Origin: Cypionkella sp. | Lineage (GTDB): Bacteria; Pseudomonadota; Alphaproteobacteria; Rhodobacterales; Rhodobacteraceae | Length of the DNA stretch: 64,000 bases | Direction: 5' to 3' | NCBI RefSeq assembly: GCF_030652235.1 | Contig: NZ_JAUSBA010000018.1 | Span: 1-64,000 of the forward strand | Shown: positions 436-35,450 of the stretch, one piece after another | Numbering within the stretch: the stretch's first letter is position 1 | How the letters are laid out: every line of letters starts with the position of its first letter | Made by a program: the position numbers and the translations under genes | Notes under the pieces: generated by a model | Database searches by the model: none | Seen by the model: only the letters and a program-made list of their open reading frames with translations | What the model was told of the DNA's origin: nothing

Positions 436-1470
436 TCAGATATTTTCGCGTGTATATATTTGAAAAGGCACGATCTTCGTGTGATTTACGCCATCTTGCG
501 GCGAACGCGTGGCGCGGACCATACCACTGATCAATGCGTCCGCTACTTGGCGCAAGGGGTGGGCGATCACCACCTTCAAAGTTCCATCAAGCAGCCCGGC
601 GCGGGTGCTGTCCATCAAGTCATAGGCGACGACAACGAGGTCAGATGCGCGGCCCGAAGCCCGAAGCGACGCCATGGCCCCTGTTACGCCGCCGCCTGAC
701 ACGAACAAAGAGGTCAGGTCGGGATTCTGTGTCAAAAGCCTATCGGTCATTTCTTCGGCAACGGCGGCGGATTCAAAGGTCGACAGCGGCTCCAGCAGGG
801 TGAAATCGGGGGCGTGTTCGCGGAAGTAGGACCGAAACCCCGACTCATTCATTTCTTGATTACGATAGCGAGGGTTCCCCATCAGGATACCTATCTTGCC
901 GGGTTTCTTGCAGAGGTTCTCAATGGCCCATGCCGAGGTGCGTCCGACCTTCCAGTTGTCGAGCCCGACATAATGCACCAGACCAGCCGCCGAAAGCTGC
1001 GAAATCAGGGCAAAGACCGGCAGACCCCGGTGCTGCAAGGTTTCGACGGCTTGTATGACAACAGGGTGGACGGCAGAGGTGATGCAGATCGAATCGCATT
1101 CGTCGCCCAATGCCAATGCGCGGGCAGCGGTATTCTGAGGCGACAGATCCTCCAGAAACTCAATGCGGACATCGACATCGAAGCCTGCCTCTGAAACGCT
1201 GGCTGCCGCATCGCGAATAGCCGCTGCACAGCTTTGGTAAAATTGGCGATGCGGTTGCAACAAAAGAAAGCCAAAGCGATAGCGCGGACGGCTGGCGGAC
1301 ACTTTGGCCTGAATAGTGCCAAGTCCGTAAAAACCAATCTTTTCTGCGGCTTCCTGCACCAGCAACCGGGTCGGCATACGGACTTTTTCGGTGCCCGCAA
1401 GGACGCGGTTCACTGTGGCAACCGATACGCCTGCGGCCTTTGCAAGATCTGGGATCGTTGGGCGGGTCAT
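436..1470 (-). CDS. LacI-family transcriptional regulator
   Basis: A 344-residue LacI/GalR-type repressor. The N-terminus (MTRPTIPDLAKAAGVSVATVNRVLAG, in two pieces about residues 1-26) is a classic LacI helix-turn-helix with its hinge helix following. Residues about 60-340 form a periplasmic-binding-protein-like effector domain, expected to bind a sugar or cyclitol. It is transcribed away from the oxygenase/ABC transporter run that starts at 1770, so it is the obvious local regulator of that run. The start at 1470 places the HTH at the very N-terminus as usual. The effector is not predictable from sequence; the neighbours suggest an inositol-like or methylated sugar compound. Confidence 0.9.
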   Translation of the reverse strand: MTRPTIPDLAKAAGVSVATVNRVLAGTEKVRMPTRLLVQEAAEKIGFYGLGTIQAKVSASRPRYRFGFLLLQPHRQFYQSCAAAIRDAAASVSEAGFDVDVRIEFLEDLSPQNTAARALALGDECDSICITSAVHPVVIQAVETLQHRGLPVFALISQLSAAGLVHYVGLDNWKVGRTSAWAIENLCKKPGKIGILMGNPRYRNQEMNESGFRSYFREHAPDFTLLEPLSTFESAAVAEEMTDRLLTQNPDLTSLFVSGGGVTGAMASLRASGRASDLVVVAYDLMDSTRAGLLDGTLKVVIAHPLRQVADALISGMVRATRSPQDGVNHTKIVPFQIYTRENI

Positions 1471-1558
1471 CGAAGCCTCATATCATTTCATGTCAAATTT
1501 CACCCCCATCCTGACATGATGAGACGAAATAGCCCGTGACACATCATCGCATCTTGAT

Positions 1559-1572
1559 TTGATCTACGTCAA
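1559..1572 (+). promoter_or_regulatory. FNR/FnrL-type box
   Basis: TTGATCTACGTCAA matches the FNR/FnrL consensus TTGAT-N4-ATCAA at all but one position. It lies 88 bases upstream of the LacI-type gene start and about 200 bases upstream of the oxygenase gene. A larger inverted repeat, CATCTTGA...TCAAGATG (1550-1576), encloses it. Oxygen-responsive control is an inference from the motif. Confidence 0.5.
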
Positions 1573-1769
1573 GATGCCAGTCTGAGGACGGGAAGAAAGC
1601 GATGCCTGTCAGCGATCTGATAGGTGCCGCAAAGGGGACTAACACCGATCATCACGAACCTTGACCGACCGCTTGCCGCGGCTCGAAGAGTGTTTCGATG
1701 CCTTGTGACAACGGCATTTGGTGGTGTGCATGAAGACTGGGCGGTTGCCTTGATGTTGGGGAGGCTGGG

Positions 1770-2786
1770 ATGGATGATCTGAAATTCGGGACGCGTAACA
1801 AGCGTGGTGACTGGGCACCCGCTACCCCGTTGGAGATCGCTTCCAGTTGGGCTTGGCCGTTCAACCTGTCGAAGTTCCTGAAGTTCCTGATCGGCTACAT
1901 CTGGCCATGGAACACGTTCCACATGGTCACCACACTGCTGTATTGGTATTATGTGATCCCCGATGTGGAGACGATGAAGACCCTAAGCTTTGGCTGGGCG
2001 TTGTGGCTGTTTGCCGTGAACGCTGCTGCGATTTTCGTGATGTACGGCTCGGTTGAGCTGTTCTGGTATGTCAAACGCAAGCAGGCCACGCGGTTCAAGT
2101 TCAACGGTAAATTCCCGGCTGACAACCCGTCCGATGTCTTTTGGTTCAAAAGCCAGAACATCGATAATTTCCTGCGGTCTTTCTTCTTTTCGATCCCGCT
2201 GTGGACTCTGGTCGAGGTGTTGTTTCTACATGCCTATGCCGTGGGTTATGTGCCGTGGCTGACTTGGGCAGATCAACCGGTTTATCTGGCAGCACTTACC
2301 CTGATGGTTCCGGTTATTCATGAGGTGCATTTTTTCTGCATCCACCGCCTGATCCACACGCCCATTCTATATAAATGGGTCCATTCGGTCCACCACAACT
2401 CGATCAACCCCAGCCCTTGGTCATCTCTTTCAATGCATCCGGTGGAGGGTTTTCTGTATCATGCTGTCGCATTCTGGCACCTGATCATTCCGTCCAATCC
2501 GATCATCGCGCTGTTCCAGCTGCACTCCGCGGGCTTTGGCGCGATCAACGGCCATATCGGTTTTGACAAGCTGGAGATCAGCGAGGACGTCGCGTTGGAC
2601 AGCCACGCCTATGCCCACTACCTGCACCACAAGCATTTCGAAGTGAACTACGGCGGCGACGGCCTGATCCCATTGGATAAATGGTTCGGCTATTGGCACG
2701 ACGGCACCAAAGAGGCCGAAGCCCGTATGGATGCACGTTTTCAGAAAAAGAAGGCCCGGATGAACGCCAAGGCGGCGCGCGGCTGA
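1770..2786 (+). CDS. Sterol desaturase/fatty acid hydroxylase superfamily di-iron oxygenase
   Basis: A 338-residue membrane di-iron enzyme. Hydrophobic segments lie around residues 40-65, 75-95, 135-160 and 170-190. The histidine clusters that bind the two irons are visible: H184-x2-H187-x4-H192-x3-H196, then H205-x2-H208-H209, and H279-x3-H283-x2-H286-H287-x-H289 near the C-terminus. The family hydroxylates or desaturates C-H bonds using O2 and electrons from a carrier. It is the first gene of a run with an ABC importer and a Rieske ferredoxin (5850) that could be its electron donor. In this setting O-demethylation or hydroxylation of the imported compound is plausible, by analogy with MocD of rhizopine catabolism, although MocD belongs to a different di-iron family. 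The substrate is unknown. Confidence 0.85.
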   Translation: MDDLKFGTRNKRGDWAPATPLEIASSWAWPFNLSKFLKFLIGYIWPWNTFHMVTTLLYWYYVIPDVETMKTLSFGWALWLFAVNAAAIFVMYGSVELFWYVKRKQATRFKFNGKFPADNPSDVFWFKSQNIDNFLRSFFFSIPLWTLVEVLFLHAYAVGYVPWLTWADQPVYLAALTLMVPVIHEVHFFCIHRLIHTPILYKWVHSVHHNSINPSPWSSLSMHPVEGFLYHAVAFWHLIIPSNPIIALFQLHSAGFGAINGHIGFDKLEISEDVALDSHAYAHYLHHKHFEVNYGGDGLIPLDKWFGYWHDGTKEAEARMDARFQKKKARMNAKAARG

Positions 2787-2887
2787 TCTCAGAATGACAC
2801 GGACCATCCCCCGCGAGGAGGCGGGAGATGGAGTTTTACGCAACGGAAACCCGTCAAAAAATGGCGGACAAAGGGAGGATACGACAC

Positions 2888-3859
2888 ATGACTTTTCTGA
2901 AAACACTTGCCAAGGTTTTGGCCACTACTGCACTGGTCAGCAGCGCAAGTGCGGCAATGGCTGCAGATATCGCTGTCATCGGCGGTTCGAACGATGATGC
3001 GTTCTGGAACATCATCAAAAAGGGCATCGACGATGCAACCCCCGGCGTTGTGGCCAATGGCGGCACCGTCAACTACCTGCGTCTGGTGAATTATGACAAC
3101 TTCGCCCCTGACGTTGTGCAACTGATCCGCACCGCGATTTCGATGGAAGTCGATGGTCTCGTGATCCCGAACTGGGTGCCAGAAGCTGAAGATCCGGCGA
3201 TCAAAGACGCGATTGCGGCTGGCATCACCGTGATCCTGATGAACGCAGGCGGCGCAGACAAAGCGACAGAGTTGGGCGCGATCAACTATGTCGGCTCTGA
3301 CGAATATGTAGCCGGTCTGGCCGGTGGCGAGTATTTCGGCAAAGCAGGCAAAAAGAACGTTCTGTGCATCAACACTCTGCCGGGTGCGGCGAACACTGAA
3401 GCCCGCTGCAAAGGCGTAATCGAGGGTGCGGTGGCTGCTGGTGGCAAGGGCGTGCAACTGCCGCTGCCGACCACCAGCTTTGGCGATGCGACGGCTGTGG
3501 CCGAAGCCATCAAGGCCGAACTGATCAAGGACGCCACAATCGACGGTGTGATCACCATCTCGGCAGGCGATGCGGACAGCGCAGCTATCGCTGTGGCTCA
3601 GGCAGGTCAGGCAACCCCCGCGATGCTGGGCTCGTTTGACATGAACCAGGCCGGTCTGGACCGGATCAAGGGCGGCACCCAAGCCTTTGCGATTGACCAG
3701 CAGCCCTACCTGCAGTCGTTCCTGGCGGTCAGCATGCTGGCATCCGCCATCGACTTTGGCACAGATCTGCCGGTTTTCCCGGTTCTGACCGGTCCGGGCA
3801 TCGTGGATGCGTCAAACATCGAGGCCACGCTGGCCGGTGTCGCCAAGGGCGCGCGCTGA
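2888..3859 (+). CDS. Sugar/cyclitol ABC transporter substrate-binding protein
   Basis: A 323-residue periplasmic type I binding protein of the ribose/inositol class. The start at 2888 is chosen because gggagg precedes it and it gives a clean signal peptide (MTFLKTLAKVLATTALVSSA, cleavage after AMA near residue 25). The mature part begins ADIAVIGGSNDDAFWNIIKKG, as in ribose-type binding proteins, and contains the two Rossmann-like lobes. An in-frame upstream ATG at 2828 would bury the signal peptide and is unlikely. It is followed by a strong stem-loop and then by permease and ATPase genes. It probably captures the compound handled by the downstream enzymes (MocB/IbpA-like role). Confidence 0.9.
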   Translation: MTFLKTLAKVLATTALVSSASAAMAADIAVIGGSNDDAFWNIIKKGIDDATPGVVANGGTVNYLRLVNYDNFAPDVVQLIRTAISMEVDGLVIPNWVPEAEDPAIKDAIAAGITVILMNAGGADKATELGAINYVGSDEYVAGLAGGEYFGKAGKKNVLCINTLPGAANTEARCKGVIEGAVAAGGKGVQLPLPTTSFGDATAVAEAIKAELIKDATIDGVITISAGDADSAAIAVAQAGQATPAMLGSFDMNQAGLDRIKGGTQAFAIDQQPYLQSFLAVSMLASAIDFGTDLPVFPVLTGPGIVDASNIEATLAGVAKGAR

Positions 3860-3869
3860 TCTGACGATC

Positions 3870-3899
3870 GGTCCGGCCTGCACATCCGCAGGCCGGACC
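3870..3899 (+). promoter_or_regulatory. Intra-operon stem-loop after the binding-protein gene
   Basis: GGTCCGGCCTGC and GCAGGCCGGACC form a perfect 12-bp stem with a 6-base loop, 11 bases after the stop codon. There is no T-tract. Such structures commonly protect the binding-protein part of ABC operon mRNAs and give it higher expression than the permease. Confidence 0.65.
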
Positions 3900-3928
3900 C
3901 TTATTCCGCAGCCATTCCGGGGGCCATC

Positions 3929-4936
3929 ATGCTTCGCAATTTCTCTTTTGGTGCCCTTGCGCGCCGACCCGAAGCCGGGGCAGCCCTCGGTCTGATCGCG
4001 GTTTTGATCTTTTTCGCTATCTTTGGCGGCCTGACCTTTTTGAAACCTGCGGGCATGGCCAGCTGGTTGAACGTCGCGGCCAATCTTGGCGTCATCGCCA
4101 TTCCCTTGGGCCTACTGATGATCGCCGGAGAGTTGGACATTTCAGTGGGTGCCATGGTGCCCTTTGGCGCGCTGACCGTTGCGGTGATCTCAGGTCACTA
4201 CGGCCTACCGATCTGGATCGGCATCGCCGCGTCGCTGTCTTTCGGCGTCATCGTCGGGCTGGTGAACGGCTTTCTGGTCATCCGCACCGCCGTGCCATCG
4301 CTGATCGTGACCCTTGGCAGCCTGTTTGCGGTCCAAGGCATCGTTCTGGGCCTGACAGTGTTGATCACCAAATCCACCAGCGTTGCGCTGAAAACTGAAG
4401 GCGTCGCCAAGGCGATGTTTGGCGATTTCGTTATGGGTGGCCAGATGCAGGTTATGGTGCTGTGGTGGCTGGGGCTGACCGCGCTCTATGTCTTTTACGT
4501 CCACCTGTCACCTTTCGGAAACTGGATCTTCGCCATGGGCGGCGACAAGGTGTCCGCCCGCAACGCCGGTATCCCGACCGAACGCCTGACAATGGTCCTG
4601 TTCGTGCTGTCATCCACAAGTGCCGCCTTTGTCGGCATGTGTCAGGCGATGCTTTACAACTCGGCCCAAGTCGCAGGCGGGCAGTCGTTCATCTTCAACT
4701 CGATCATTTCGGTTGTGGTGGGGGGCGTATTGCTGACCGGCGGCTTTGGATCGGTGATCGGGATCTTCTTTGGCACCATCACCTTCGCGATTGTGACCCA
4801 AGGTATTTACTACACTGATTTTGACCGCAACTGGTCGTCGCTGATCATCGGAGTGCTGCTGCTCGGTGCAGTTTTGATGAACAACACCTTCCGTCAGATG
4901 GCGCTGTCTTATGCGCCAAAGAAAGGGGCCAAGTGA
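3929..4936 (+). CDS. ABC transporter permease (RbsC-like)
   Basis: A 335-residue integral membrane permease of the ribose/inositol (RbsC/IatP) family. About eight to ten hydrophobic segments are visible, and the sequence LLMIAGELDISVGAMVPFG near residues 61-79 is the family signature for the second/third helices. It follows the binding-protein gene and its stop overlaps the start of the ATPase gene. It would form the membrane channel of the importer, as a dimer. The substrate is inferred only from the neighbours. Confidence 0.9.
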   Translation: MLRNFSFGALARRPEAGAALGLIAVLIFFAIFGGLTFLKPAGMASWLNVAANLGVIAIPLGLLMIAGELDISVGAMVPFGALTVAVISGHYGLPIWIGIAASLSFGVIVGLVNGFLVIRTAVPSLIVTLGSLFAVQGIVLGLTVLITKSTSVALKTEGVAKAMFGDFVMGGQMQVMVLWWLGLTALYVFYVHLSPFGNWIFAMGGDKVSARNAGIPTERLTMVLFVLSSTSAAFVGMCQAMLYNSAQVAGGQSFIFNSIISVVVGGVLLTGGFGSVIGIFFGTITFAIVTQGIYYTDFDRNWSSLIIGVLLLGAVLMNNTFRQMALSYAPKKGAK

Positions 4937-5754
4937 TGGCCGCCCCAATCCTTGCCCTGCGCGGCGTCAACAAATCTTTCGGCCCCATCGACGTGCTGCA
5001 CGACATCACGCTAGAGGTTCACGCAGGCGAAGTGCTGTGCCTTCTGGGCGATAACGGCGCGGGCAAATCGACGTTGATCAAGCTTATGTCGGGCGTGCAC
5101 CAACCCACCAACGGGCACATCGAGATCGACGGGGCCACCATCACCCTGCCCACCCCGCGCGCTGCGTCCGACAAAGGCATCGCCACAGTTCATCAGTTCG
5201 GCGGCACATTCCCCTTAATGTCCATCGGGCGCAGCTTTTTCGTGGGCGTCGAGAAGACCAAAGGCTGGGGGCCGTTCAAGGTTTACGACCGCAAAGGTGC
5301 CAATGACATCGCCGTCAAAGCCGTGCGCGACTTTGGCATCACGCGGATTGACGACGGCGACCGGCTCGTCGGCGGTCTGTCGGGCGGGGAACGTCAGTCG
5401 CTTGCCATCGCGCGGGCGGTGCATTTCGGTGCCCGCGTGCTGATTTTGGACGAACCCACGGCGGCCCTTGGCGTCAAGCAGGCCACCCACGTTCTGCGGA
5501 TCGTGAACGAGGCGAAACGGCGCGGGTTGGCGGTGATTTTCATCACCCATCAGGTCATGCACGCGATGGCAGTTGGCGATCACTTTGCCGTGCTGATCCG
5601 CGGCGCTGTCGCGGCCGATTTCCACAAGGGCGAGAAAACCCGCGAGGAAATCACCGATCTGATGGCGGGTGGAGCCAGCATGGCCAGTCTTGAAGCCGAG
5701 ATTGAAATCTACATGAACAGCCATGGCGGCCACCCGCCCCCGCCTGCGGCCTAA
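4936..5754 (+). CDS. ABC transporter ATP-binding protein, single domain
   Basis: A 272-residue nucleotide-binding subunit. Walker A GDNGAGKS (near residue 40), signature LSGGERQ (near 150) and Walker B VLILDEPTAAL (near 170) are all present. The ATG at 4936 overlaps the permease stop as TGATG, so I prefer it to the GTG one codon upstream. Most ribose-type importers use a double-length ATPase of about 500 residues; this one has only one domain and would act as a homodimer, as in a subset of carbohydrate importers of this class. Confidence 0.9.
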   Translation: MAAPILALRGVNKSFGPIDVLHDITLEVHAGEVLCLLGDNGAGKSTLIKLMSGVHQPTNGHIEIDGATITLPTPRAASDKGIATVHQFGGTFPLMSIGRSFFVGVEKTKGWGPFKVYDRKGANDIAVKAVRDFGITRIDDGDRLVGGLSGGERQSLAIARAVHFGARVLILDEPTAALGVKQATHVLRIVNEAKRRGLAVIFITHQVMHAMAVGDHFAVLIRGAVAADFHKGEKTREEITDLMAGGASMASLEAEIEIYMNSHGGHPPPPAA

Positions 5755-5798
5755 GCTCTCCCCGTCGGCAAGTCGGATTTCTCCCCGGCCCCGACCTT

Positions 5799-5829
5799 GC
5801 CCCGGCCCGACCTCCACGCGGGCCGGGGC
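5799..5829 (+). promoter_or_regulatory. GC-rich stem-loop between ATPase and ferredoxin genes
   Basis: GCCCCGGCCCG and CGGGCCGGGGC form a perfect 11-bp stem with a 9-base loop in the 95-base gap. There is no T-tract. It could attenuate or stabilise the operon transcript and separates the transport genes from the enzyme genes. Confidence 0.55.
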
Positions 5830-5849
5830 CCCAACAACGGATCTGACAC

Positions 5850-6161
5850 ATGACAAACTGGATACGCGCCTGCGCCACGACAGATATCGATCCGGATGAT
5901 CTGATCCGCTTTGATCACGGCACGCAGACCTTCATCATCATCCGCAGCGAAGACGATACCTTTCATGCCATGGACGGCATTTGCAGCCACGAAAAGGTGC
6001 ATCTTTGCGATGGTCTGGTGATGGAAGGCCGCGTCGAATGCCCCAAGCACAGCGCGACTTTTGACTATCGCACGGGCGAGGCCAAAACCGCCCCAGCCTG
6101 CATCAACCTGAAAACCTTTGCTGTCAAAGTTGAAGACGGCTCTGTTTATATCGAGATTTGA
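5850..6161 (+). CDS. Small Rieske [2Fe-2S] ferredoxin (MocE-like)
   Basis: A 103-residue soluble Rieske protein. The two cluster-binding motifs are CSH (in GICSHEKVHL, near residue 46) and CPKH (near residue 66), spaced as in Rieske ferredoxins of oxygenases. No catalytic domain is attached, so it is an electron carrier. It lies inside the importer/dehydrogenase run, and the only oxygenase nearby is the di-iron protein at 1770, so a donor-acceptor pair is a natural inference. Rhizopine catabolism uses a ferredoxin of this kind (MocE). No ferredoxin reductase (MocF equivalent) is encoded in the run. It ends one base before the next start codon. Confidence 0.9.
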   Translation: MTNWIRACATTDIDPDDLIRFDHGTQTFIIIRSEDDTFHAMDGICSHEKVHLCDGLVMEGRVECPKHSATFDYRTGEAKTAPACINLKTFAVKVEDGSVYIEI

Positions 6162-6162
6162 C

Positions 6163-6936
6163 ATGACATTCCAACTTGCTGCCTGCGCGGAAATGCTGTG
6201 GCGCGACCGGCCCATCGAGTGGCGGGCGTCGCGTCTGAATGAGATGGGCTTTGGCGTCGGCCTGTGGAACTGGCCCGCTTGGGACTTGGCTAAGTTGGAA
6301 GCAACTGGTGCGACGTTCACTATTATGAATGGCTATCTGCAGGGCCGTCTGACCGATGCCGACGGCTGCGCGATGCTGCTGGCTTCTGCCGCCGAGACTG
6401 CCGCCGTAGGCAAGCGGCTGGGCGTGCATCGGTTGAACCTGCATGGCACGGGGCTTGGCGATATGGGCATCCCAATTCCGCAGATCGGGTCTTTTGCCCC
6501 TGGTATGGAACAGCGCGCCCGCGACACGCTGCACCGCATCTGCGATCTGGCAGATGCAGGGGGCCAAGTGTTCACTCTTGAAAACCTGAACCCCATCGAC
6601 CACCCCGGTTGCCCGTTCGGGTCTACCGCCGATGTGCTGGCGCTGGTGTCGGCGGTCAACCGTCCGCAGTTGCGTATCAATCTGGACCTTTACCATACCC
6701 AGATAGGCGAGGGCGATCTAATCCGTTGGTGCGAGGCCTGCCTGCCGTGGATCGGCGAAGTGCAAGTCGCCGACAATCCGGGCCGGTGTGAACCGGGCAC
6801 CGGAGAGATCAACTATCCAGGCATTGCCAAGGCTCTGAAAGCCATGGGCTATTCCGGCCCTGTGGGCATGGAGGCCAATGCGGCGGGTGATGAAGAGTTG
6901 GCTTTGAAAGCCTTCCGCAACGCATTTACGGTGTAG
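6163..6936 (+). CDS. Hydroxypyruvate isomerase-like TIM-barrel protein (MocC/IolE-like fold)
   Basis: A 257-residue protein of the xylose isomerase-like TIM-barrel superfamily, closest in look to hydroxypyruvate isomerases. Candidate metal ligands are the Glu in TLENLNP, the Asp-x-x-His in LDLYHTQ, and the Glu in VGMEANAAG near the C-terminus. The start at 6163 follows the ferredoxin stop by one base; a longer upstream reading would overlap the ferredoxin and is rejected. Proteins of this fold isomerise, epimerise or dehydrate sugars and inosose intermediates. A catabolic step after dehydrogenation is likely, but the exact reaction is not predictable. Confidence 0.8.
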   Translation: MTFQLAACAEMLWRDRPIEWRASRLNEMGFGVGLWNWPAWDLAKLEATGATFTIMNGYLQGRLTDADGCAMLLASAAETAAVGKRLGVHRLNLHGTGLGDMGIPIPQIGSFAPGMEQRARDTLHRICDLADAGGQVFTLENLNPIDHPGCPFGSTADVLALVSAVNRPQLRINLDLYHTQIGEGDLIRWCEACLPWIGEVQVADNPGRCEPGTGEINYPGIAKALKAMGYSGPVGMEANAAGDEELALKAFRNAFTV

Positions 6937-6938
6937 TT

Positions 6939-7748
6939 ATGGTCCACAAAGCAAACCGCCCTACCGTCCACGACATGCGCGCCATGAAGGCGCGAGGGCA
7001 GAAGATTTCGATGCTTTACGTCACCTCGCTGGACGAAGCGGCGGCGGCGGATGCCGCGGGCATCCATATGCTGTCCATCGAAAGCCGCTTCTTCACGCCA
7101 GAAATGCGCGAGGCAGCGGGCAAGTGTTTCGTGCAGGTGGGCCTGCCCTTCGGCCCCTACGGCGGGCTGGCGACGGCGGAAGATTACTTGCGCGAGGCGT
7201 TCAAGTTCACCGCGATGGGAGGTGACTGTTTTTATTGCGCTGCCTCCTTGGCTATTCAGAAAGCGATGTGCGACAACCACATGCCGGTGGTCGCACATGT
7301 TGGCCTGATCCCCAGTTACATCACTTGGACTGGCTGGCGCGCGGTTGGCAAGACGGCTGATGAGGCCCGCGCCGTGTGGGACCACGTCAAGCAACTGGAA
7401 GCCATCGGTTGCTTTGGGGCTGAGTTGGAGGTTGTTCCCGACCGCCTGGGCGAGATTATTTCCCAAAACACCCCGATGATCATGCTGGGCATGGGGGCTG
7501 GCCCCGGTGCCGACGCCCAATACCTGTTCGCCGAGGATGTTCTGGGCTGCACCGACGGCCACAAGCCGCGCCACGCCAAAACCTACCGCAACTTCGCCGC
7601 CGAATATGCCCGGCTGCAGACCGAACGTGTGGCTGCGTTTGCCGAGTTCATCGCTGACGTAAACGCAGGCCAATATCCCGAACCCCGTCACAACGTCGCC
7701 ATGGTCGACGCTGAGTTTTCCGCTTTCAAGGCCGATCTGGGCCTTTAA
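6939..7748 (+). CDS. PanB-like protein lacking the ketopantoate synthase catalytic residues
   Basis: A 269-residue homologue of 3-methyl-2-oxobutanoate hydroxymethyltransferase. Conserved blocks align by eye: PVVAHVGLIP (PanB GHLGLTP), GAELEVVPDRL (LVLECVPVEL) and MIMLGMGAGPGADAQ (VIGIGAGNVTDGQ). The residues that bind Mg2+ and act in PanB are changed: Asp45 of the GDS motif is Glu48, Asp84 of DLPF is Gly68, and the Lys112/Glu114 pair is Tyr99/Ala101; only Glu181 (here Glu164) remains. The segment after the first motif is also shorter. It is therefore unlikely to make ketopantoate and probably serves the catabolic run as an aldolase or lyase. Any automatic 'PanB' label here would be misleading. 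Confidence 0.75.
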   Translation: MVHKANRPTVHDMRAMKARGQKISMLYVTSLDEAAAADAAGIHMLSIESRFFTPEMREAAGKCFVQVGLPFGPYGGLATAEDYLREAFKFTAMGGDCFYCAASLAIQKAMCDNHMPVVAHVGLIPSYITWTGWRAVGKTADEARAVWDHVKQLEAIGCFGAELEVVPDRLGEIISQNTPMIMLGMGAGPGADAQYLFAEDVLGCTDGHKPRHAKTYRNFAAEYARLQTERVAAFAEFIADVNAGQYPEPRHNVAMVDAEFSAFKADLGL

Positions 7749-7763
7749 CTTCAAGGACATAAA

Positions 7764-8765
7764 ATGCTGAACGTAGCCCTTCTTGGCGCAGGCCGTATTG
7801 CCGGCGTCCATGCCACCGCCATTTCGACCAACCCCGGTTCGCGCCTTGTTGCGGTGTCTGACATCAATGCAGATGCCGCTGCCAAACTGGCCGCAGAGTA
7901 TGGCGCAGAGGTGCGCACGACCGATGCCATTCTGGCTGACACATCCATCAACGCCGTACTGATTGCCACGTCGACCGATACCCATTCGGACTTGATCGAA
8001 AGCGCCACAGCAGCAGGCAAGGCCGTGTTGTGTGAAAAGCCGGTGGACTTGTCTTTGGCCCGTGCGCAGGCCTGCCAGAAAGTCGTGGCCAGCAACGGCC
8101 GTCCGGTGATGATCGGCTTCAACCGCCGCTTTGACCCGAACTTTTCGGCATTGAAGGCGGCCTTAGACAAGGGCGAAATCGGCAAGGCCGAACTTCTTTC
8201 GATCACTTCATTCGATCCTGCCCCGCCGCCGGTGGCCTATATCAAGGTATCGGGTGGGTTGTTCCGCGACATGATGATCCACGACTTCGATATGGCCAAC
8301 TTCATCTTTGGCGCGGTTCCGGTCAGCGTCTCGGCAACGGGATCTTGCATTGTTGACCCAGCCATCGGTGCGGCTGGCGATGTTGACACCGCAGTCGTCA
8401 CTCTGTCCTACGCAGACGGAAGCATTGCCGTCATCAAGAACTCTCGCCGCGCCGTCTATGGCTATGATCAACGCGTTGAACTGCTGGGTTCTGAAGGATT
8501 GCTGCAGGCGCAGAACATGCTGGAAAACACCGTCGTGAAATCGACCACTGCGGGGGTAACCGGGGCCAAGCCGACCTATTTCTTCCTTGAGCGTTATATG
8601 CCCGCTTATCGTGCCGAATGGGCCGCCTTCGTCACAGCAGTTGACGCTGGATCTGCCCTGCCAGTGACACTTGCGGACGGTGTCGCCGCCCTTGCGATGG
8701 CTGAGGCCGCAACCCTATCGCTAAAGTCAGGGGCGCCCGTACACATAAAAGACATCGTCGCATAA
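7764..8765 (+). CDS. Gfo/Idh/MocA-family dehydrogenase (inositol 2-dehydrogenase-like)
   Basis: A 333-residue NAD(P)-dependent oxidoreductase. The N-terminal Rossmann motif GAGRIAGVHA (near residues 8-17), the EKPVDLSL motif (near 93-100) and the HDFDMANF motif (near 173-180) are those of IolG/MocA enzymes that oxidise inositols and related cyclitols or aldoses. It is the last gene of the run and starts 15 bases after the PanB-like gene. Its presence next to an RbsC-class importer is the main argument for a sugar or cyclitol substrate. Substrate specificity cannot be fixed by sequence alone. Confidence 0.9.
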   Translation: MLNVALLGAGRIAGVHATAISTNPGSRLVAVSDINADAAAKLAAEYGAEVRTTDAILADTSINAVLIATSTDTHSDLIESATAAGKAVLCEKPVDLSLARAQACQKVVASNGRPVMIGFNRRFDPNFSALKAALDKGEIGKAELLSITSFDPAPPPVAYIKVSGGLFRDMMIHDFDMANFIFGAVPVSVSATGSCIVDPAIGAAGDVDTAVVTLSYADGSIAVIKNSRRAVYGYDQRVELLGSEGLLQAQNMLENTVVKSTTAGVTGAKPTYFFLERYMPAYRAEWAAFVTAVDAGSALPVTLADGVAALAMAEAATLSLKSGAPVHIKDIVA

Positions 8766-24085: not shown

Positions 24086-25480
24086 ATGACCGAGACAGCG
24101 TTTCTCTTGAACGGAACGCCGGTGCGCATCGCAGGCGGCAGCCCGACGCGCACCCTGTTGGAATATCTGCGTGAAGACCAATCCCTCTGCGGCACCAAAG
24201 AGGGCTGCAATGAAGGCGATTGCGGGGCCTGCACCGTCATGGTCACCGACGCGAACGGCCCCAAGGCGCTGAACGCCTGCATCCTGTTCCTACCGCAACT
24301 GCACGGCAAAGCCGTCCGCACCGTGGAGGGCATTTCTGGCCCGAACGGCGAACTTCACCCGGTCCAAGCCGAAATGATCGCCCACCACGGCAGCCAATGC
24401 GGCTTCTGCACGCCGGGTTTTATCGCCTCAATGGCCGTGGCCCACACCCTGAACCGCACCGATCACGACACCACCCTCGCCGGAAACCTCTGCCGCTGCA
24501 CCGGCTACGCCCCGATCATCCGGGCCGCAAAAGCCGCCGAATCCGCGAAGGTTCCCGCATGGATGCAATCCGACCAGCGCAACCTGCCCACCGTGGTGGG
24601 GACGGGGGAGGCGTACAGCCTCCCCGGCGCGTTCCGACCCACCAACTCCGATGATCTCGCCGATTGGTATCAGCAAAACCCAGATGCCACCCTGATCGCA
24701 GGTGCCACCGATGTCGGCCTTTGGGTCACAAAACAACTGCGCGACCTCGGGCCGGTGGCCTTCCTGAACGCCGTCACCGACCTGCAACAGATCGAACACT
24801 CCCCCGGCCAACTTCACATCGGGGCTGCCGTCACCATCAATCAACTGCGCGAAGCCCTGCTGCCGCTGCACCCGTCCTTCGCGGAAATGCTGCGCCGCTA
24901 CGCCTCGGAACAGGTCCGCAACGCCGCCACCATCGGCGGCAACATCGCCAACGGCTCGCCGATCGGAGACGCCCCGCCCGCCCTGATCGCGCTGGGTGCC
25001 ACCTTACACCTGCGCAAAGGCCCCGACCTGCGCTCTATCGCGCTGGAGAATTTCTTCATCGAATACCGCAAACAAGACCGCCACCCCGGCGAGTTCGTCG
25101 CAGGCCTTTCCATCCCCACCAGCGCCCCAAACTTACGCTGCTACAAACTGACCAAACGCTTCGATCAAGACATTTCCGCCGTTCTCGGCTGCTTCAACCT
25201 CACAGTTGAGGCCAACCAAATCACCCAAGCCCGCATCGCCTTCGGCGGCATGGCAGGCATCCCCAAACGCGCCGCCGCAGTTGAAACCGCCGTCCTCAAC
25301 AAACCCTTTTCCCTGCAAACCCTAGAATGCGCGCTCCCCGCCTTCGCCAAAGATTTTCAACCCCTCACCGACATGCGCGCCTCATCCACCTACCGCCTCA
25401 CCACCGCGCAAAACCTGCTGATCCGCTATTTCCACGACCTCAGCGGCACCAAAACCAACGTGCTGGAGGTCTCGGTATGA
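24086..25480 (+). CDS. xdhA: Xanthine dehydrogenase small (FeS/FAD) subunit
   Basis: A 464-residue subunit. The N-terminal ferredoxin-like [2Fe-2S] domain has Cys41, Cys46, Cys49 and Cys65; the second [2Fe-2S] domain has QCGFC (Cys105, Cys108) and CRC (Cys136, Cys138). Residues about 165-460 form the FAD domain, with GATDVGLWV and [15 protein letters not shown]. It passes electrons from the molybdenum site to NAD+. It overlaps xdhB as ATGA. With xdhB and xdhC it forms the Rhodobacter-type enzyme that oxidises hypoxanthine and xanthine to urate. Confidence 0.95.
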
Positions 25481-27819
25481 CCAAGGGTAAACCGCTCCCA
25501 CACGATTCTGCCCCCCTGCACGTCACAGGCCAAGCCCGCTATCTTGACGACATTCCGCTGCCCGCAGGCACCTTGCACGCCGCCTTTGGCCTGTCCCCCT
25601 GCGCCCACGGCACCATCACCGACATTGACCTTTCCGCCGTCCGCGCAGCCCCCGGTGTGATCAAAACCTATGCCAGCGCCGACTTCACCGAGATGCCCGA
25701 TTGCTCGCCCTCCACCCATGACGAACCGCTGCTCGCCACGGGTAAAGTCCACTACATCGGCCAACCCGTCTTCCTTGTCATCGCCGACACCCATCTCAAC
25801 GCCCGCAAAGCCGCGCGCTTGGGCAAAATAACCTACGCCGACCTCCCCGCCTTGCTGACGGTGGACGACGCCCTCAAAGCCAATTCCCGGTTTGAGCAAG
25901 GCCCGATCATCTGGACCAAAGGCGACGCCGCCAAAGCCATCGCCACCGCCGCACAAATCATCGAAGGCACTATGGACGTCGGCGGCCAAGAACACTTCTA
26001 CCTCGAAGGCCAGATCGCCGCCGCCATCCCACAAGAAGACGGCGTGCATATCTATTCCTCGACCCAACACCCGACCGAGATTCAACACAAAGTCGCCCAC
26101 GCCCTGCACCTTCCCATGAGCGCTGTCCGCGTCGAAACCCGCCGCATGGGCGGTGGTTTCGGCGGCAAGGAATCCCAGGGCAACGCCCTCGCCATCGCCT
26201 GCGCCATTGCTGCCCGCGACCTGAATAAACCCTGCAAAATGCGCTACGACCGCGACGACGATATGATGATCACTGGCAAACGCCACGATCTGCGCATCAG
26301 CTACCGCGCCGGGATCGACGCGCAAGGCCGCATCTTAGGGATAGATTTCACCCATCTCGTCCGCTGCGGCTGGGCGCAAGATCTGTCGCTCGCCGTCGCC
26401 GACCGGGCCATGCTGCACGCCGACAACTGCTATCACCTCCCCGACATCCGCATTGAATCGCACCGCCTGAAAACCAACACCCAATCCGCCACCGCATACC
26501 GGGGCTTCGGTGGCCCGCAGGGCATCATCGGGATTGAGCGGGTGATCGACCACGTCGCCCACGCGCTGAAAAAAGACCCCAACGAGATCCGCAAACTCAA
26601 CTACTATCGCGCCGCGCAACCCACCGGGCCCGGCACAGGTCACCGCATAGGCTCCACCTATTCCCCCACCAACGCGCAGGCGCAAACCACCCCCTATTTC
26701 ATGGAGGTCGAGGATTTCATCGGCCAAGACATCCACGACGCCTTGGAGAAATCGAGCAATTACCAAGCCCGCCGTACTGAAATCGCCGCTTGGAATAGCA
26801 CTAACCCAATCTTGAAGCGCGGCCTCGCCTTCACCCCGGTAAAGTTCGGCATCTCCTTTACCCTGACATGGCTGAACCAAGCCGGAGCCCTCGTGCATGT
26901 CTATCAAGACGGCTCGATCCACCTCAACCACGGCGGCACCGAGATGGGCCAGGGCCTGAACCAAAAGGTCGCGCAAGTCGCGGCCTCGGTGTTCGGCGTC
27001 GACGCGTCGCAGGTGAAAATCACCGCCACCGACACTGCAAAAGTGCCCAACACCTCGGCCACCGCCGCCTCGTCGGGGGCCGATATGAACGGCATGGCCG
27101 CGCAAAACGCCTGCGAGATCATCCGCGCCCGCATGGCCGATTTCCTTGCCGACAAGCTTGGCACCCAGCCCAACGAAGTCCGCTTTGAGAACGGCACCGT
27201 GCGGGCGGGCGGCGAATCCTATCCCTTTGCCCAAATCGCCGCATGGGCCTACCAAGCCCGCATCTCGCTGTCCTCAACCGGCTTCTACGCCACCCCAAAA
27301 ATCAACTGGGACCGTGTGAAAGGCAAAGGCCGCCCGTTCCTCTACTTCGCCTATGGTGCCGCCATCACCGAGGTCGTGATCGACAGCCTCACCGGCGAAA
27401 ACCGCATCCTGCGCACCGATATATTGCACGACGCCGGAACCAGCCTGAACCCCGCCCTCGACATCGGCCAGGTCGAGGGCGCTTATGTCCAAGGCGCAGG
27501 CTGGCTGACCACCGAAGAACTGGTCTGGAACGCCAAAGGTGCTTTGACCACCCACGCCCCCAGCACCTACAAAATCCCCGCCTGCTCCGACCGCCCGCCG
27601 ATTTTCAACGTCGCCCTTTGGGATAAACCCAACCGCGAAGACACCGTCGGCAAATCCAAAGCTGTGGGCGAGCCGCCGTTCAACCTTGGCATCTCCGCCT
27701 TCCTCGCCCTGTCTGACGCGATAGCCGCCTGCGGAGACGGCACGCGCTATCCAAACCTCGATGCCCCCGCCACCCCCGAACGCATCCTCAAAGCCGTGCA
27801 AGATCAGCGCCATGTTTGA
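25477..27819 (+). CDS. xdhB: Xanthine dehydrogenase large (molybdopterin) subunit
   Basis: A 780-residue molybdenum subunit that carries the hydroxylation site for xanthine. Visible are [13 protein letters not shown] (about 223-235) in the cofactor-binding region, YRGFGGPQG, and [10 protein letters not shown] near residue 730 with the catalytic Glu. The start at 25477 overlaps the xdhA stop as ATGA; an in-frame upstream ATG lies inside xdhA and is rejected. The next gene, xdhC, begins within its last codons, so all three are translationally linked. Confidence 0.95.
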
Positions 27820-28756
27820 CTTAGAAACACTCACCGAAACCGTTACCCAACACGGCCCTACCGCCCGCGTCGTCATCGCCGCCCACCAAGGCTCCTCCCC
27901 CCGTGAAGTCGGCGCATCCATGCTGGTCTGGTCTTCAGGCCAATCCGGCACCATCGGCGGCGGCGCCCTAGAACATCAAGCCACCCAACACGCCCGCAGC
28001 CTTCTCGCCACAAAAGAAAAATCCCTCACCCACACCGCCCTCGGCCCCAAACTAAACCAATGCTGCGGCGGGGCCGTCACCCTGTTCACCGAAGTGTTTA
28101 CTGCCGAAACCCTCCCCGAACCGAACTCGCTGATCGCCCGCCCCACCAACGACACGGCAATGCCCCTTGCCGTCAAACGCCTGCTCGCCACCGCCCGCAA
28201 CCAAGGCGCACTCCCCGCCCCGCACCTGATGCAAGGCTGGATGATCGAACCACTCGCCCATCCCACACGCCAGCTTTGGATCTGGGGCGCAGGCCACGTC
28301 GGGCGCGCCCTAATACACACACTCGCCCCGCTCTCCGATCTACACATCACTTGGATCGACACCGCCCCCAGCCGCTTCCCCTTTACCATCCCCGACAACA
28401 CCACCGCCCTGCCCGTCGAAACCCCCACCAACGCCACCGAACTCGCCCCCCGCAACGCCGAGCACCTGATCCTCACCTATTCGCACGCCCTCGACCTTGA
28501 TCTCTGCCACCGCCTGCTGCTGCACGGCTTCCAATCGCTGGGCCTGATCGGATCACAAACCAAATGGGCCCGCTTCCAATCCCGCCTGCGCGCCCTTGGC
28601 CATACCCCGCAAACCATCGCCAAAATCACCTGCCCGATTGGCGACCCCAGCCTTGGCAAACACCCAAATGCCATCGCCATTGGCGTCGCCGCCCAGCTGC
28701 TGCGCCCCACCGCACAGGCGGGCCACAGCCTAACCGCCCCCAGCCGCAGCGCTTGA
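27812..28756 (+). CDS. xdhC: Xanthine dehydrogenase accessory protein XdhC
   Basis: A 314-residue chaperone that binds molybdenum cofactor, promotes its sulfuration and inserts it into XdhB. The N-terminal XdhC/CoxI domain (VIAAHQGSSPREVGASMLV, then GTIGGGALEHQA) and the C-terminal Rossmann-like domain (LWIWGAGHVGRALIHTL; GLIGSQTKWARF) are intact. The ATG at 27812 overlaps the xdhB stop by 8 bases. It ends the xdh operon; a deaminase gene follows after 49 bases. Confidence 0.93.
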   Translation: MFDLETLTETVTQHGPTARVVIAAHQGSSPREVGASMLVWSSGQSGTIGGGALEHQATQHARSLLATKEKSLTHTALGPKLNQCCGGAVTLFTEVFTAETLPEPNSLIARPTNDTAMPLAVKRLLATARNQGALPAPHLMQGWMIEPLAHPTRQLWIWGAGHVGRALIHTLAPLSDLHITWIDTAPSRFPFTIPDNTTALPVETPTNATELAPRNAEHLILTYSHALDLDLCHRLLLHGFQSLGLIGSQTKWARFQSRLRALGHTPQTIAKITCPIGDPSLGKHPNAIAIGVAAQLLRPTAQAGHSLTAPSRSA

Positions 28757-28805
28757 CGCCAAAGCGAAAACCCTCAACCCTGCCGCAAACCTCCAAGGGG
28801 CACCC

Positions 28806-30095
28806 ATGTTCGATCTGATCCTAAGAAACGCCAACCTCCCCGATGGCCGCAAAGGCCACGATATCGCCATCACGGCCAATAAAATCGCCGAAATCGCCCC
28901 GAACATCCAAGCCACCGCCCGAGAAGAAATCGACGCCACAGGCCGCCTCGCCTCGCCCCCCTTCGTCGATCCACATTTTCACATGGACGCCACCCTGTCG
29001 CTCGGCCTGCCACGGATGAACCGCTCCGGCACGCTGCTCGAAGGCATCGCCCTATGGGGGGAACTCCGCCCCACCCTCACCATCGACGCCCTCGTTGCCC
29101 GCGCCCTGCGCTACTGCGACCTCGCCGTCACCCAAGGCCTGCTGGCGATCCGCACCCATGTCGACACCTCCGACCCCAAACTCATCACCGTGCAGGCGAT
29201 GCTAGAGGTCAAGGCCCGCGTCAAACCCTACATCGACCTGCAACTCGTCGCTTTCCCGCAAGACGGCTACTTCCGCGCCTCCGAAGGCGTCACATCCCTG
29301 ACCCGCGCCCTTGACATGGGCGTCGACATCGTCGGCGGCATCCCGCATTTTGAGCGCACCATGGCCGAAGGCCAGGCCAGCGTCGAAGCCCTCTGCCGCC
29401 TTGCCGCCGAGCGTGGCCTACCCGTCGATATGCATTGCGATGAAACCGATGACCCCAACTCTCGCCATGTCGAAACCCTCGCCCAGCAAACCATCCGCCA
29501 CGGGCTGCAAGGCCGCGTTGCAGGCTCTCACCTCACATCCATGCATTCGATGGACAATTACTACGTCTCGAAACTGATCCCGCTGATCGCGGAATCGCAG
29601 ATGAACGTGATCCCCAATCCGCTGATCAACATCATGCTGCAGGGCCGTCACGACACCTATCCCAAACGCCGCGGCATGACCCGGGTGCCCGAACTGATGG
29701 CCGCTGGCATCAATGTCTCGTTCGGCCATGATTGCGTGATGGACCCGTGGTACGCGATGGGCTCGGGCGATATGCTGGAAGTTGGCCATATGGCGATCCA
29801 CTCTGCGCAAATGGGCAGCCTTGAGGATAAAACCAAAATCTTCAACGCCCTGACCGTGAACTCGGCCAAAACCATGGGCCTGCAAAACTACGGGCTGGAA
29901 AAAGGCCGCAACGCCGATCTGATCCTGCTGCAAGCCCGCGACCCCGCCGAGGCGCTCCGCCTGAAAGCCACCAAACTCTTGGTGATCAAAGCGGGCAAAA
30001 TCATCGCCCGCACCCCGGCGCGTGTCGGCGCTTTGTTCCTAGAAGGCCGCCCGTCCGAAATCGACCCAGCGCTAGACTTCGCGCCAGAGTACTAG
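28806..30095 (+). CDS. codA: Cytosine deaminase (CodA-type amidohydrolase)
   Basis: A 429-residue metal-dependent amidohydrolase. The order of motifs follows E. coli CodA: DPHFHMDATLS (first HxH), DMHCDETDDPNSRHVETLA (His and Glu of the proton shuttle), and SFGHDCVMDPWYAMGSGDM with the metal-binding Asp. It converts cytosine to uracil; related enzymes act on isoguanine or other bases, so specificity is not certain. It lies 49 bases after xdhC on the same strand, in a nucleobase-use region. Its TAG stop shares the sequence ctag with the stop of a truncated tetR remnant on the other strand. Confidence 0.85.
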   Translation: MFDLILRNANLPDGRKGHDIAITANKIAEIAPNIQATAREEIDATGRLASPPFVDPHFHMDATLSLGLPRMNRSGTLLEGIALWGELRPTLTIDALVARALRYCDLAVTQGLLAIRTHVDTSDPKLITVQAMLEVKARVKPYIDLQLVAFPQDGYFRASEGVTSLTRALDMGVDIVGGIPHFERTMAEGQASVEALCRLAAERGLPVDMHCDETDDPNSRHVETLAQQTIRHGLQGRVAGSHLTSMHSMDNYYVSKLIPLIAESQMNVIPNPLINIMLQGRHDTYPKRRGMTRVPELMAAGINVSFGHDCVMDPWYAMGSGDMLEVGHMAIHSAQMGSLEDKTKIFNALTVNSAKTMGLQNYGLEKGRNADLILLQARDPAEALRLKATKLLVIKAGKIIARTPARVGALFLEGRPSEIDPALDFAPEY

Positions 30096-30238
30096 GCGAG
30101 GCTCTCGCGCTTCGCCCCGGCGGTCAACTCGTCCATCGACGTTGCGGCAAAGCCCTGTTCACCAAAGGCTTTACGCCCCGCCACGATCAGCTTGGGGCGG
30201 GTTTCTTCCATCATCGCACTGCGATGTTTCGCGGCCAT
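30092..30238 (-). pseudogene. Truncated TetR-family regulator (N-terminal remnant)
   Basis: Only 48 residues remain: MAAKHRSAMMEETRPKLIVA, GRKAFGEQGFAATSMDELTA, GAKRESLA, stop. The first 40 match the start of a TetR DNA-binding domain up to the middle of the helix-turn-helix. A complete regulator is about 190 residues. The frame runs straight into the 3' end of codA, so the rest has been deleted or replaced. It is divergent from a broken ridA-like gene, the usual partner arrangement. Confidence 0.7.
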
Positions 30239-30374
30239 TTTGCCTACTTTCACATACGCGACGCATCCATATTGACATGCGACTCGAATGTAAAATCCAA
30301 GACAGAACGTGTAGCCGCTTCTGTCACTGGCTTTTCTACTGGGTTCCCCAAACCAAACCCAAAAGAAGTTCCAA

Positions 30375-30767
30375 ATGATACAGCGCAGCGCCATCTTCCC
30401 GGCCAACCGCCACGCGCTTGACGCGGTGCACGGCTATTCCGCCGCGATCCGCTCGGGCGATGGTTTGTGCGTATCGGGCCAAGTCGGCAGCGGCAGCGAC
30501 AGCAGTCCGAATCCGGGTTTTGAGGCCCAAGTCCGGCTTGCGTTTTCAAATCTGGCCGACACACCCAACGCCGCAGGTTACAGCTTCGACGGTATCGTGG
30601 ATGTGACCTGCTTCCACGCCGAACCCGAAACCCAGCTCCCCACCATCATGCAGGGGAAAGCCGAAATCCTGCCATCCGCGCCCGATCGAAATTGGACGGC
30701 CCTCGGGGTGACATAGCGCGCGAGTTTTGAGGTTGAAATCAAGCTAACCGCGCGTATCCCCGATTGA
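30375..30767 (+). pseudogene. RidA-family gene with an in-frame amber stop
   Basis: The frame codes for a RidA/YjgF-type protein (imine deaminase family): FDGIVDVTCFHAEPETQLPT and APDRNWTALGVT match the family. It then hits TAG at 30714-30716, where the family has Trp (GVTWL...). The same frame continues after the stop as RASFEVEIKLTARIPD and ends at TGA 30765-30767, just like an intact RidA C-terminus (130 residues in total). A TGG to TAG change would explain it. The lost C-terminal strand makes a functional trimer unlikely. Confidence 0.85.
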
Positions 30768-30894
30768 ATCAGGCGCATAACGCCCTGCGCAGATCACGCA
30801 AGTCGCCTCCGATATGTGAAAAGGCCACCCTGCAGACAGCATTGCATAGGGTGCTGCCCGCGTCACAGACCCTGATTTATGACTTCATAAATCG

Positions 30895-35431: not shown

Positions 35432-35450
35432 ACACCAACAGGAGAATAAT

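Follow-up and report, generated by a model that had tools for sequence, protein, structure and literature searches.

The window analysed here, the 64,000 nucleotides at positions 1 to 64,000 of contig NZ_JAUSBA010000018.1 from Cypionkella sp. (GCF_030652235.1; 76 contigs, 4.8 Mb in total), carries an operon resembling the rhizopine catabolism (moc) genes of rhizobia, equipped with an oxygenase of another family and with an offshoot of PanB (ketopantoate hydroxymethyltransferase) that has a folate connection. The module, meaning the operon, the families of its products and their linkage, is well supported, and from it we infer both the substrate and the reaction of the PanB-like protein. With a probability of about 0.5, the substrate is an O-methylated cyclitol, either an O-methyl inositol like pinitol or ononitol or something closely related, which the operon breaks down by oxidative O-demethylation, with the PanB-like protein loading the carbon onto tetrahydrofolate.

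The operon and its conservation

The window proteins were assigned to families by comparing their Pfam and NCBIfam profile scores with the curated cut-offs (Table 1). All genes named in an earlier, sequence-only reading of this DNA were present, with coordinates and family matches in agreement, and its description of a moc-like catabolic operon held: the ferredoxin and the dehydrogenase score above the cut-offs for MocE and IolG, and the binding protein has a rhizopine model as its best match. The LacI-type regulator is indeed divergent from the run, but its gene lies outside the interval 1770-8765 to which it had been ascribed. The run is regarded as one operon because of its short gaps (1, 2 and 15 bp between the genes for the ferredoxin, the triosephosphate isomerase (TIM) barrel protein, the PanB-like protein and IolG) and a 4-bp overlap between the genes for the permease and ATPase of its ATP-binding cassette (ABC) importer. 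A LacI operator was sought in the divergent intergenic region and none could be demonstrated, the region holding a single imperfect 7-bp inverted repeat, at 1507.

The oxygenase matched PF04116 as its only Pfam family, with no match to PF00487, the family of MocD, and the earlier proposal that a different di-iron family stands in the place of MocD is thus borne out. No NCBIfam family was found for it, nor any relative among solved structures by sequence at an expectation value (E) of 0.01. In an alignment of 20 sequences including that of the window, histidines 187, 192, 196, 205, 208, 209, 283, 286 and 287 were present in all, His184 in 19 and His279 in 18; the window protein has four hydrophobic stretches. 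The top NCBIfam match of the binding protein was the rhizopine binding protein (NF052284, 143.8 bits), under the cut-off of 420, and its closest solved structure, both by sequence and by fold, was 4ru1, which we take to be a myo-inositol complex. For the TIM barrel protein the best NCBIfam match was TIGR03234 (106.8 bits vs a cut-off of 353.45) and a match to TIGR04379 (IolE) was absent; in this the barrel differs from the IolE-like protein encoded in the moc locus described below.

For conservation, 54 homologous loci were fetched by similarity to the window PanB-like protein, and since they were retrieved with this protein they are not independent draws. Scoring was restricted to 38 loci, with four that had no PanB-like match over half of the query, and others with less than 8.5 kb upstream, set aside. 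The neighbourhood that the sequence-only reading had proposed to look for, oxygenase, ferredoxin and PanB-like gene together, was found inside 9.5 kb in 36 of the 38 (the exceptions being L038 and L058). Gene by gene, the same distance contained the LacI regulator in 37 loci, the oxygenase in 37, the binding protein in 37, the ferredoxin in 36, the TIM barrel in 33 and an IolG-like gene in 24. The oxygenase and ferredoxin are thus conserved together as expected, whereas the dehydrogenase, which had been expected to accompany them, does so only in part of the loci. Other Gfo/Idh genes replace or join the TIM barrel or IolG in seven loci (L033, L035, L036, L044, L049, L053 and L069), and Mesorhizobium loci, e.g. 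L040, have no IolG nearby. Because the presence of IolG and the TIM barrel varies across loci while the remainder persists, the constant core comprises the regulator, oxygenase, importer, ferredoxin and PanB-like protein, and the dehydrogenase part is variable. The best matches to the window PanB-like protein came from Gemmobacter, Rhodobacter, Tabrizicola and further Rhodobacteraceae; in Gemmobacter fulvus the operon is on a plasmid, with a transposase gene flanking it on each side. A chance neighbourhood was ruled out by the conservation of the trio in 36 of 38 loci together with the linkage counts from the Rhizobium family given below.

Table 1 Features of the window operon, with profile scores and curated cut-offs in bits.
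Feature	Coordinates	Strand	Family evidence
LacI-type regulator	436..1470	-	PF00356 43.7; PF13407 98.5 (sugar-binding-protein-like effector domain)
Divergent intergenic region, 299 bp	1471..1769	.	Presumed promoter and operator
Membrane di-iron oxygenase, FA_hydroxylase superfamily	1770..2786	+	PF04116 60.5, cut-off 31
Periplasmic binding protein, inositol/rhizopine-type importer	2888..3859 (longer frame from 2828)	+	Peripla_BP_4 113.1, cut-off 35.1
ABC permease	3929..4936	+	BPD_transp_2 137.9, cut-off 26.8
ABC ATPase, single cassette	4933..5754	+	ABC_tran 105.2, cut-off 25
Rieske-type [2Fe-2S] ferredoxin, MocE family	5850..6161	+	TIGR02377 150.3, cut-off 136.15
Xylose-isomerase-like TIM barrel, presumed isomerase/epimerase	6163..6936	+	AP_endonuc_2 PF01261 87.2, cut-off 31.1
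PanB-like protein	6939..7748	+	Pantoate_transf PF02548 123.2, cut-off 28.7
Gfo/Idh/MocA dehydrogenase, inositol 2-dehydrogenase IolG	7764..8765	+	TIGR04380 426.9, cut-off 355

The PanB-like protein and its gene partners

The window protein is designated PanB-like and not PanB because it falls under both curated cut-offs (TIGR00222 panB 79.9 bits, cut-off 207.55; NF001452 108.4 bits, cut-off 272). That it might be a true PanB was ruled out by these scores and by an altered metal site, and a genuine PanB (351 bits) is encoded elsewhere in the genome. Profile alignment with this protein and with PanB from E. coli gave a probability of 99.7% (seq. id. 24% over 230 columns); the G-x-G-A-G stretch of PanB is kept, and about 20 residues following Asp45 (E. 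coli numbering, used throughout) are missing. His136 and Glu181 were conserved in all 135 PanB-like proteins collected, a set that includes near-copies (e.g. L127/L128 and L009/L077), so that counts over it are not independent. We take Asp45, Asp84 and Glu114 to be the metal ligands of PanB, and presume a role for Lys112 as well; at these four positions the window protein has Ser, Gly, Ala and Tyr, respectively. In the 133 rows in which the metal positions were counted (L120 and L125 were left out), Lys112 was never kept, and 120 had a tyrosine in its place. Of the site, the part that activates the keto acid thus seems mostly lost, whereas the barrel persists together with His136 and Glu181. 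PanB employs a metal in enolisation, and the hydroxymethyl group is donated by methylene-tetrahydrofolate (PMC7770189).

An AlphaFold2 model of the PanB-like protein was of modest quality (predicted local distance difference test score 68.3, predicted template modelling (TM) score 0.70; one usable model of five) and is given moderate weight. With this model as query in Foldseek, the top 28 of the best 50 PDB matches were PanB (query TM 0.51-0.63), followed by methylisocitrate lyase and relatives of phosphoenolpyruvate (PEP) mutase, which suggests that the protein adopts the PanB barrel fold.

The sequence-only reading had regarded the PanB-like step as an addition to moc, a claim that did not survive comparison with rhizobial loci. 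On pSymA of Sinorhizobium meliloti T073 (L127), genes for an IolE-like protein, two Gfo/Idh proteins, a binding protein, MocR, mocD, mocE, mocF, a PanB-like protein and PurU follow one another, the PanB-like and PurU frames overlapping by 4 bp. MocR in this locus is genuine (763.9 bits, rhizopine MocR cut-off 650), and MocE (183.7 bits, cut-off 136.15) and PurU (327.4 bits, cut-off 285.95) also exceeded their cut-offs. So did the IolE-like protein (TIGR04379, 394.7 bits, cut-off 290), which from its place is probably MocC. The T073 binding protein scored just 45.9 bits against the rhizopine binding protein model and, as it comes from a locus with a genuine MocR, this model is not diagnostic. 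The same gene order was seen in S. kummerowiae, on order alone, and the existing annotation of rhizobial plasmids from R. etli CIAT 652 and S. medicae ml29 gives the order LacI, mocD, mocE, mocF, PanB-like. In S. meliloti 1021 the genes mocD, mocE and mocF bear the tags SM_b20818-SM_b20820 (PMC11387232).

The association was quantified in 199 genomes of the family of Rhizobium sp. BK313 (L058, G337), taken as Rhizobiaceae, where 61 PanB-like places were found in 49 genomes (E of 1e-60 or better). A MocE gene lay within 6 kb of 44 of the 47 places scoring above 340 bits, of 2 of the 5 at 280-340 bits, and of none of the 9 below 280 bits, with about 0.2 expected over all 61 places. The PanB-like gene follows mocDE or mocDEF in most of 55 Rhizobium-family loci compared. 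These loci and that of T073 rule out that the PanB-like gene was added to moc locally: the PanB offshoot also belongs to moc loci. The mocD promoter is described as rhizopine-inducible (PMC10107442), and the PanB-like gene downstream would be included in this response if co-transcribed. The main text of that paper contains the words formaldehyde, folate and hydroxymethyl zero times each, and none of the titles among the open-licence literature matches listed concerned a PanB-like protein of moc loci.

Across the 135 PanB-like proteins, the oxygenase encoded within 7 kb was of the MocD type in 52 cases, of PF04116 in 44, of both kinds in 5 and of the PhyH type in 4, and 30 had none of these; a ferredoxin was found within the same distance in 107, PurU in 14 and FolD in 2. 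A tree was built from 124 rows (122 PanB-like proteins and two PanB; 13 contig-end rows of the 135 were left out), L033 and L161 being relabelled by hand as their PF04116 gene lies just past 7 kb. The PF04116 label changes six times on this tree, five changes being forced by starred branches, although two of the six are labelling effects in the main group (L019, which has both types, and L108, which has no oxygenase in the stretch). PF04116 partners occur in four separate places, i.e. the main group including the window, L171, L177 and L178; the deep order of the tree is unsure since the method was quick and long branches were flagged. The MocD-type rows closest to the group of the window are L147, L076 (Aestuarium, Rhodobacterales), L107 and L160, and the two MocD-type genes scanned against PF00487, from L070 and L112, both matched. 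A 1.6-Mb genome (G161) encodes in a row a MocD-like protein, a MocF-like protein, MocE, a PanB-like protein, a second MocD-like protein and a PF04116 protein. The oxygenase partners swap while the PanB-like protein stays, so the latter most likely acts on what they share, the oxygenation product.

Several further contexts were observed. On outer branches, PanB-like genes adjoin PhyH-type dioxygenases (L110 7232-10559, L118 6592-8361, L124 4938-6643), with no MocE-type ferredoxin within 7 kb. In five stretches (L179-L181, L184 and L185) the PanB-like gene adjoins IolC-like kinases (seq. id. 24-27%), and the stretch contains neither an oxygenase nor a ferredoxin of the kinds tested for; L180, L181, L184 and L185, and not L179, have ABC importer matches too. 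Among 337 alphaproteobacterial genomes, a PanB-like match (E of 1e-40 or better) was found in 21 and a MocE-family match (E of 1e-20 or better) in 37. The small genomes G030 (1.4 Mb) and G259 retain PanB-like genes, neither having a MocE-family match at this threshold, and in G030 (L114 7202-8973) the PanB-like gene adjoins a MocD-like oxygenase.

The Cypionkella genome itself has PanB-like genes on three other contigs, 68, 44 and 3. On contig 68 (L069, 1553-13026) there is a second cluster of the window type, in which PF04116-type oxygenases, binding proteins and Gfo/Idh genes, two of each, and a further TIM barrel surround one ferredoxin-PanB-like pair. Contig 44 (L070, 6017-9384) has a LacI gene opposite a PF00487 MocD-type oxygenase (122.9 bits), a ferredoxin and a PanB-like gene, and on contig 3 (L071, 6389-7588) the PanB-like gene that comes after a ferredoxin is broken into two frames, through either decay or assembly error.

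The connection to folate comes from the genes that follow the PanB-like gene. In Agrobacterium tumefaciens HAMBI 105 and Mesorhizobium huakuii 7653R, single plasmid-borne runs comprise mocD, mocE, mocF, the PanB-like gene, purU and folD. Of the 61 Rhizobium-family places, 9 had PurU (E of 1e-50 or better) encoded no more than 6 kb away, against 0.15 expected from the number of PurU and an assumed genome of 5.8 Mb; the printed probability of 9e-14 treats the loci as independent, which they are not. Two of these nine loci (L132 and L133) encode LacI, the PF04116 oxygenase, binding protein, permease, ATPase, ferredoxin, TIM barrel, PanB-like protein, IolG and then PurU (331.7 and 330.3 bits, cut-off 285.95), a MocF-like reductase preceding PurU in L133; they appear, from their gene order, to be the operon of the window with the missing parts supplied. 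The order in L108 is ferredoxin, TIM barrel, PanB-like, Gfo/Idh, IolG, PurU (336.6 bits), iolC and iolD.

Elsewhere in the window, a gene at 39602-42097 (- strand) appears by eye to encode a flavin adenine dinucleotide-dependent enzyme of the dimethylglycine/sarcosine dehydrogenase kind, possibly another folate-linked demethylation. The stretch 24086-36533 resembles, also by eye, a purine-type catabolic run (with xanthine-dehydrogenase-like and deaminase-like genes) followed by a nucleoside-type ABC importer.

Proposed pathway and alternative explanations

The substrate is suggested to be an O-methyl cyclitol because the importer and dehydrogenase are of the inositol type, because mocDEF serves a methylated inosamine, and because of the root exudate response of Rhizobium mesoamericanum. 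In that species mocDEF-like, mocB-like and inositol genes are induced in root exudate, for which the authors propose rhizopine; pinitol is given as the most concentrated exudate component (145 µM; inositol 0.73 µM) (PMC5789663). Methyl-inositols are widely made by legumes (PMC8730688). As for the inositol genes, the runs of L076 and L108 continue into iolC and iolD, the PanB-like gene of L172 lies within an iolE-D-C run, and the Cypionkella genome has three IolD over the cut-off, on other contigs.

In the pathway we propose, the LacI-type regulator would control the divergent promoter and be relieved by the substrate or a product, and the ABC system, clear in its family, would import the methylated cyclitol. 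The MocE-type ferredoxin would pass electrons from a reductase encoded elsewhere in the genome to the oxygenase, which would hydroxylate the O-methyl group to a hemiacetal, giving free cyclitol and formaldehyde. A precedent for ether cleavage is offered by alkylglycerol monooxygenase, which we take to be a membrane enzyme of the PF04116 kind. The PanB-like protein would combine the formaldehyde, or the carbon taken directly from the hemiacetal, with tetrahydrofolate to 5,10-methylene-tetrahydrofolate, i.e. catalyse only that half of the PanB reaction which involves folate and not the half involving the keto acid; such a transfer is suggested by the fold, by the loss of the acceptor site and by the association with PurU and FolD. 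Where relatives encode FolD and PurU, these would carry the carbon through formyl-tetrahydrofolate to formate. IolG would form an inosose by oxidising the cyclitol, the TIM barrel protein would isomerise an intermediate and IolD-type enzymes, present by family like IolG, would presumably finish the breakdown.

A wider proposal, which we put forward tentatively and hold to be somewhat less probable than the demethylation of a cyclitol in the window, is that the PanB-like clade constitutes a dedicated family joining demethylation carbon at the level of formaldehyde to tetrahydrofolate. It would have arisen from a PanB that lost its keto-acid and metal site, act downstream of PF04116, PF00487 and perhaps PhyH oxygenases, and represent an overlooked step of rhizopine catabolism leading via FolD and PurU to formate. 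Formaldehyde condenses with tetrahydrofolate spontaneously, but the uncatalysed reaction is too slow for assimilation, with a doubling time of more than three weeks on the spontaneous reaction alone, and PanB and LtaE are named as the two E. coli candidate catalysts (PMC7073904).

Several observations weigh against demethylation coupled to folate. Formaldehyde-dependent growth of E. coli is unchanged when panB and ltaE are missing (PMC7073904), which makes true PanB dispensable for the condensation there; the activity proposed here would thus have been gained by the PanB-like offshoot, E. coli PanB itself not having it. Asp45 is kept in 4 of the 133 rows (among them that of Aestuarium; this column lies in a poorly conserved stretch where the alignment is least certain), Asp84 in 1 and Glu114 in none, and given these changed metal positions the folate chemistry may have been lost too. 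Neither a MocF reductase nor PurU or FolD is among the nine genes of the window operon, PurU is missing from most loci, and none in the Cypionkella genome exceeds the cut-off (best 76.4 bits), where the carbon would need another folate route. L038 is an operon without a detected ferredoxin. After setting aside, from the 30 PanB-like genes with no oxygenase of the three types within 7 kb, 13 at contig ends (L121 on its downstream side only) and two with the oxygenase just beyond 7 kb, 15 remain. On the tree, a branch of nine rows consists of eight with no tested oxygenase in 7 kb and L113, some of them adjoining IolC-like kinases and ABC importers. Class-wide, 28 match rows for the PanB-like protein come from 21 genomes, and just 10 of these rows, from 6 genomes, have MocE within 6 kb, the rows lacking it being mostly weaker profile matches; the tie between the PanB-like protein and MocE weakens outside the closer relatives. 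Membrane di-iron enzymes, moreover, also hydroxylate or desaturate carbon.

In the main rival, the target of the oxygenase is a carbon of the ring or of a side chain instead of an O-methyl group, and the PanB-like protein works on the oxidised carbon skeleton as an aldolase, lyase or isomerase. The Foldseek neighbours methylisocitrate lyase and PEP mutase relatives fit such a role, as does a keto-acid site that is remodelled and not merely lost, and PanB-like genes without a close MocE do occur in an iol run (L172) or by IolC-like kinases (L179-L181, L184, L185). We nevertheless consider it unlikely, as it leaves unexplained both the presence of PurU and FolD in the same runs and the swapping of oxygenase families around a single PanB-like clade. 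Slightly less probable still is that demethylation occurs as proposed and the PanB-like protein is folate-free, breaking the hemiacetal or moving the carbon to another acceptor, while PurU and FolD clear spontaneous folate adducts. The changed metal and keto-acid site and the absence of PurU from most loci and, at the cut-off, from the Cypionkella genome would agree with this, and the spontaneous condensation exists; yet that reaction is too slow for formaldehyde assimilation (PMC7073904), and the protein has the fold of a hydroxymethyltransferase that depends on folate.

Two further accounts of the operon fare worse. MocE over its cut-off, a binding protein nearest to the rhizopine model and IolG could point to a rhizopine operon proper, for 3-O-methyl-scyllo-inosamine, but the operon is without MocR, a PF00487 oxygenase, an IolE-like protein, a reductase and an aminotransferase, and the window type occurs in many Rhodobacteraceae, several of them from ponds, making this improbable. 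Least probable of all, and very much so, is an ordinary importer operon for inositol or a monosaccharide with unrelated enzymes carried along: although the three ABC genes and IolG would suffice for inositol, with three IolD elsewhere in the genome, the oxygenase, ferredoxin and PanB-like gene would hardly stay together in 36 of 38 relatives, nor would the ferredoxin-PanB-like pair recur in three more clusters of the same genome (L069, L070 and L071).

Comparison with known systems

Whether cells possess an enzyme joining formaldehyde to tetrahydrofolate bears on methyl-group salvage, and the PanB offshoot described here is linked genetically to oxygenases and, in some loci, also to PurU and FolD. 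If the proposal is true, the rhizopine pathway would be completed, its methyl carbon leaving via the PanB-like protein, FolD and PurU as formate, and a bacterial route to methyl-inositols would be at hand.

Compared to PanB of pantothenate synthesis, the window protein is alike in its fold, in His136 and Glu181 and in the G-x-G-A-G stretch, and differs in its low identity, its missing loop, its scores below the cut-offs and the replacement of the metal ligands and Lys112. Myo-inositol catabolism (iol) shares IolG, and some relatives run into iolC and iolD; the window operon adds the oxygenase, ferredoxin and PanB-like protein, while IolD of the same genome is encoded on other contigs. Loci for O-demethylation of the vanillate type are represented by L120 (3209-7347), where a PanB relative lies beside a VanA_C oxygenase and near a GCV_T folate-binding protein, but they use a Rieske oxygenase instead of a membrane di-iron enzyme, and the PanB relative of L120 passes the PanB cut-offs. 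This protein nonetheless has Ser and Gln at the positions of Asp84 and Glu114.

In the FixV-regulated rhizobial mocD clusters (PMC3538637), a LacI/GalR-type regulator is likewise divergent from an oxygenase operon next to a sugar epimerase; they differ in carrying mocDEF, and neither panB nor hydroxymethyltransferase occurs in the main text of that paper. The window operon is not moc proper: compared to rhizopine moc (mocCABRDEF) of Sinorhizobium meliloti and Rhizobium leguminosarum, it has LacI in place of MocR, a PF04116 oxygenase in place of the PF00487 MocD and no MocF, its TIM barrel is not IolE-like and its binding protein scores far under the rhizopine cut-off, though that model is not diagnostic. 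The two systems are alike in the MocE-family ferredoxin, the membrane di-iron oxygenase, the inositol-type importer and the Gfo/Idh/MocA dehydrogenase, and the S. meliloti T073 locus likewise has a PanB-like gene, 3' of mocF.

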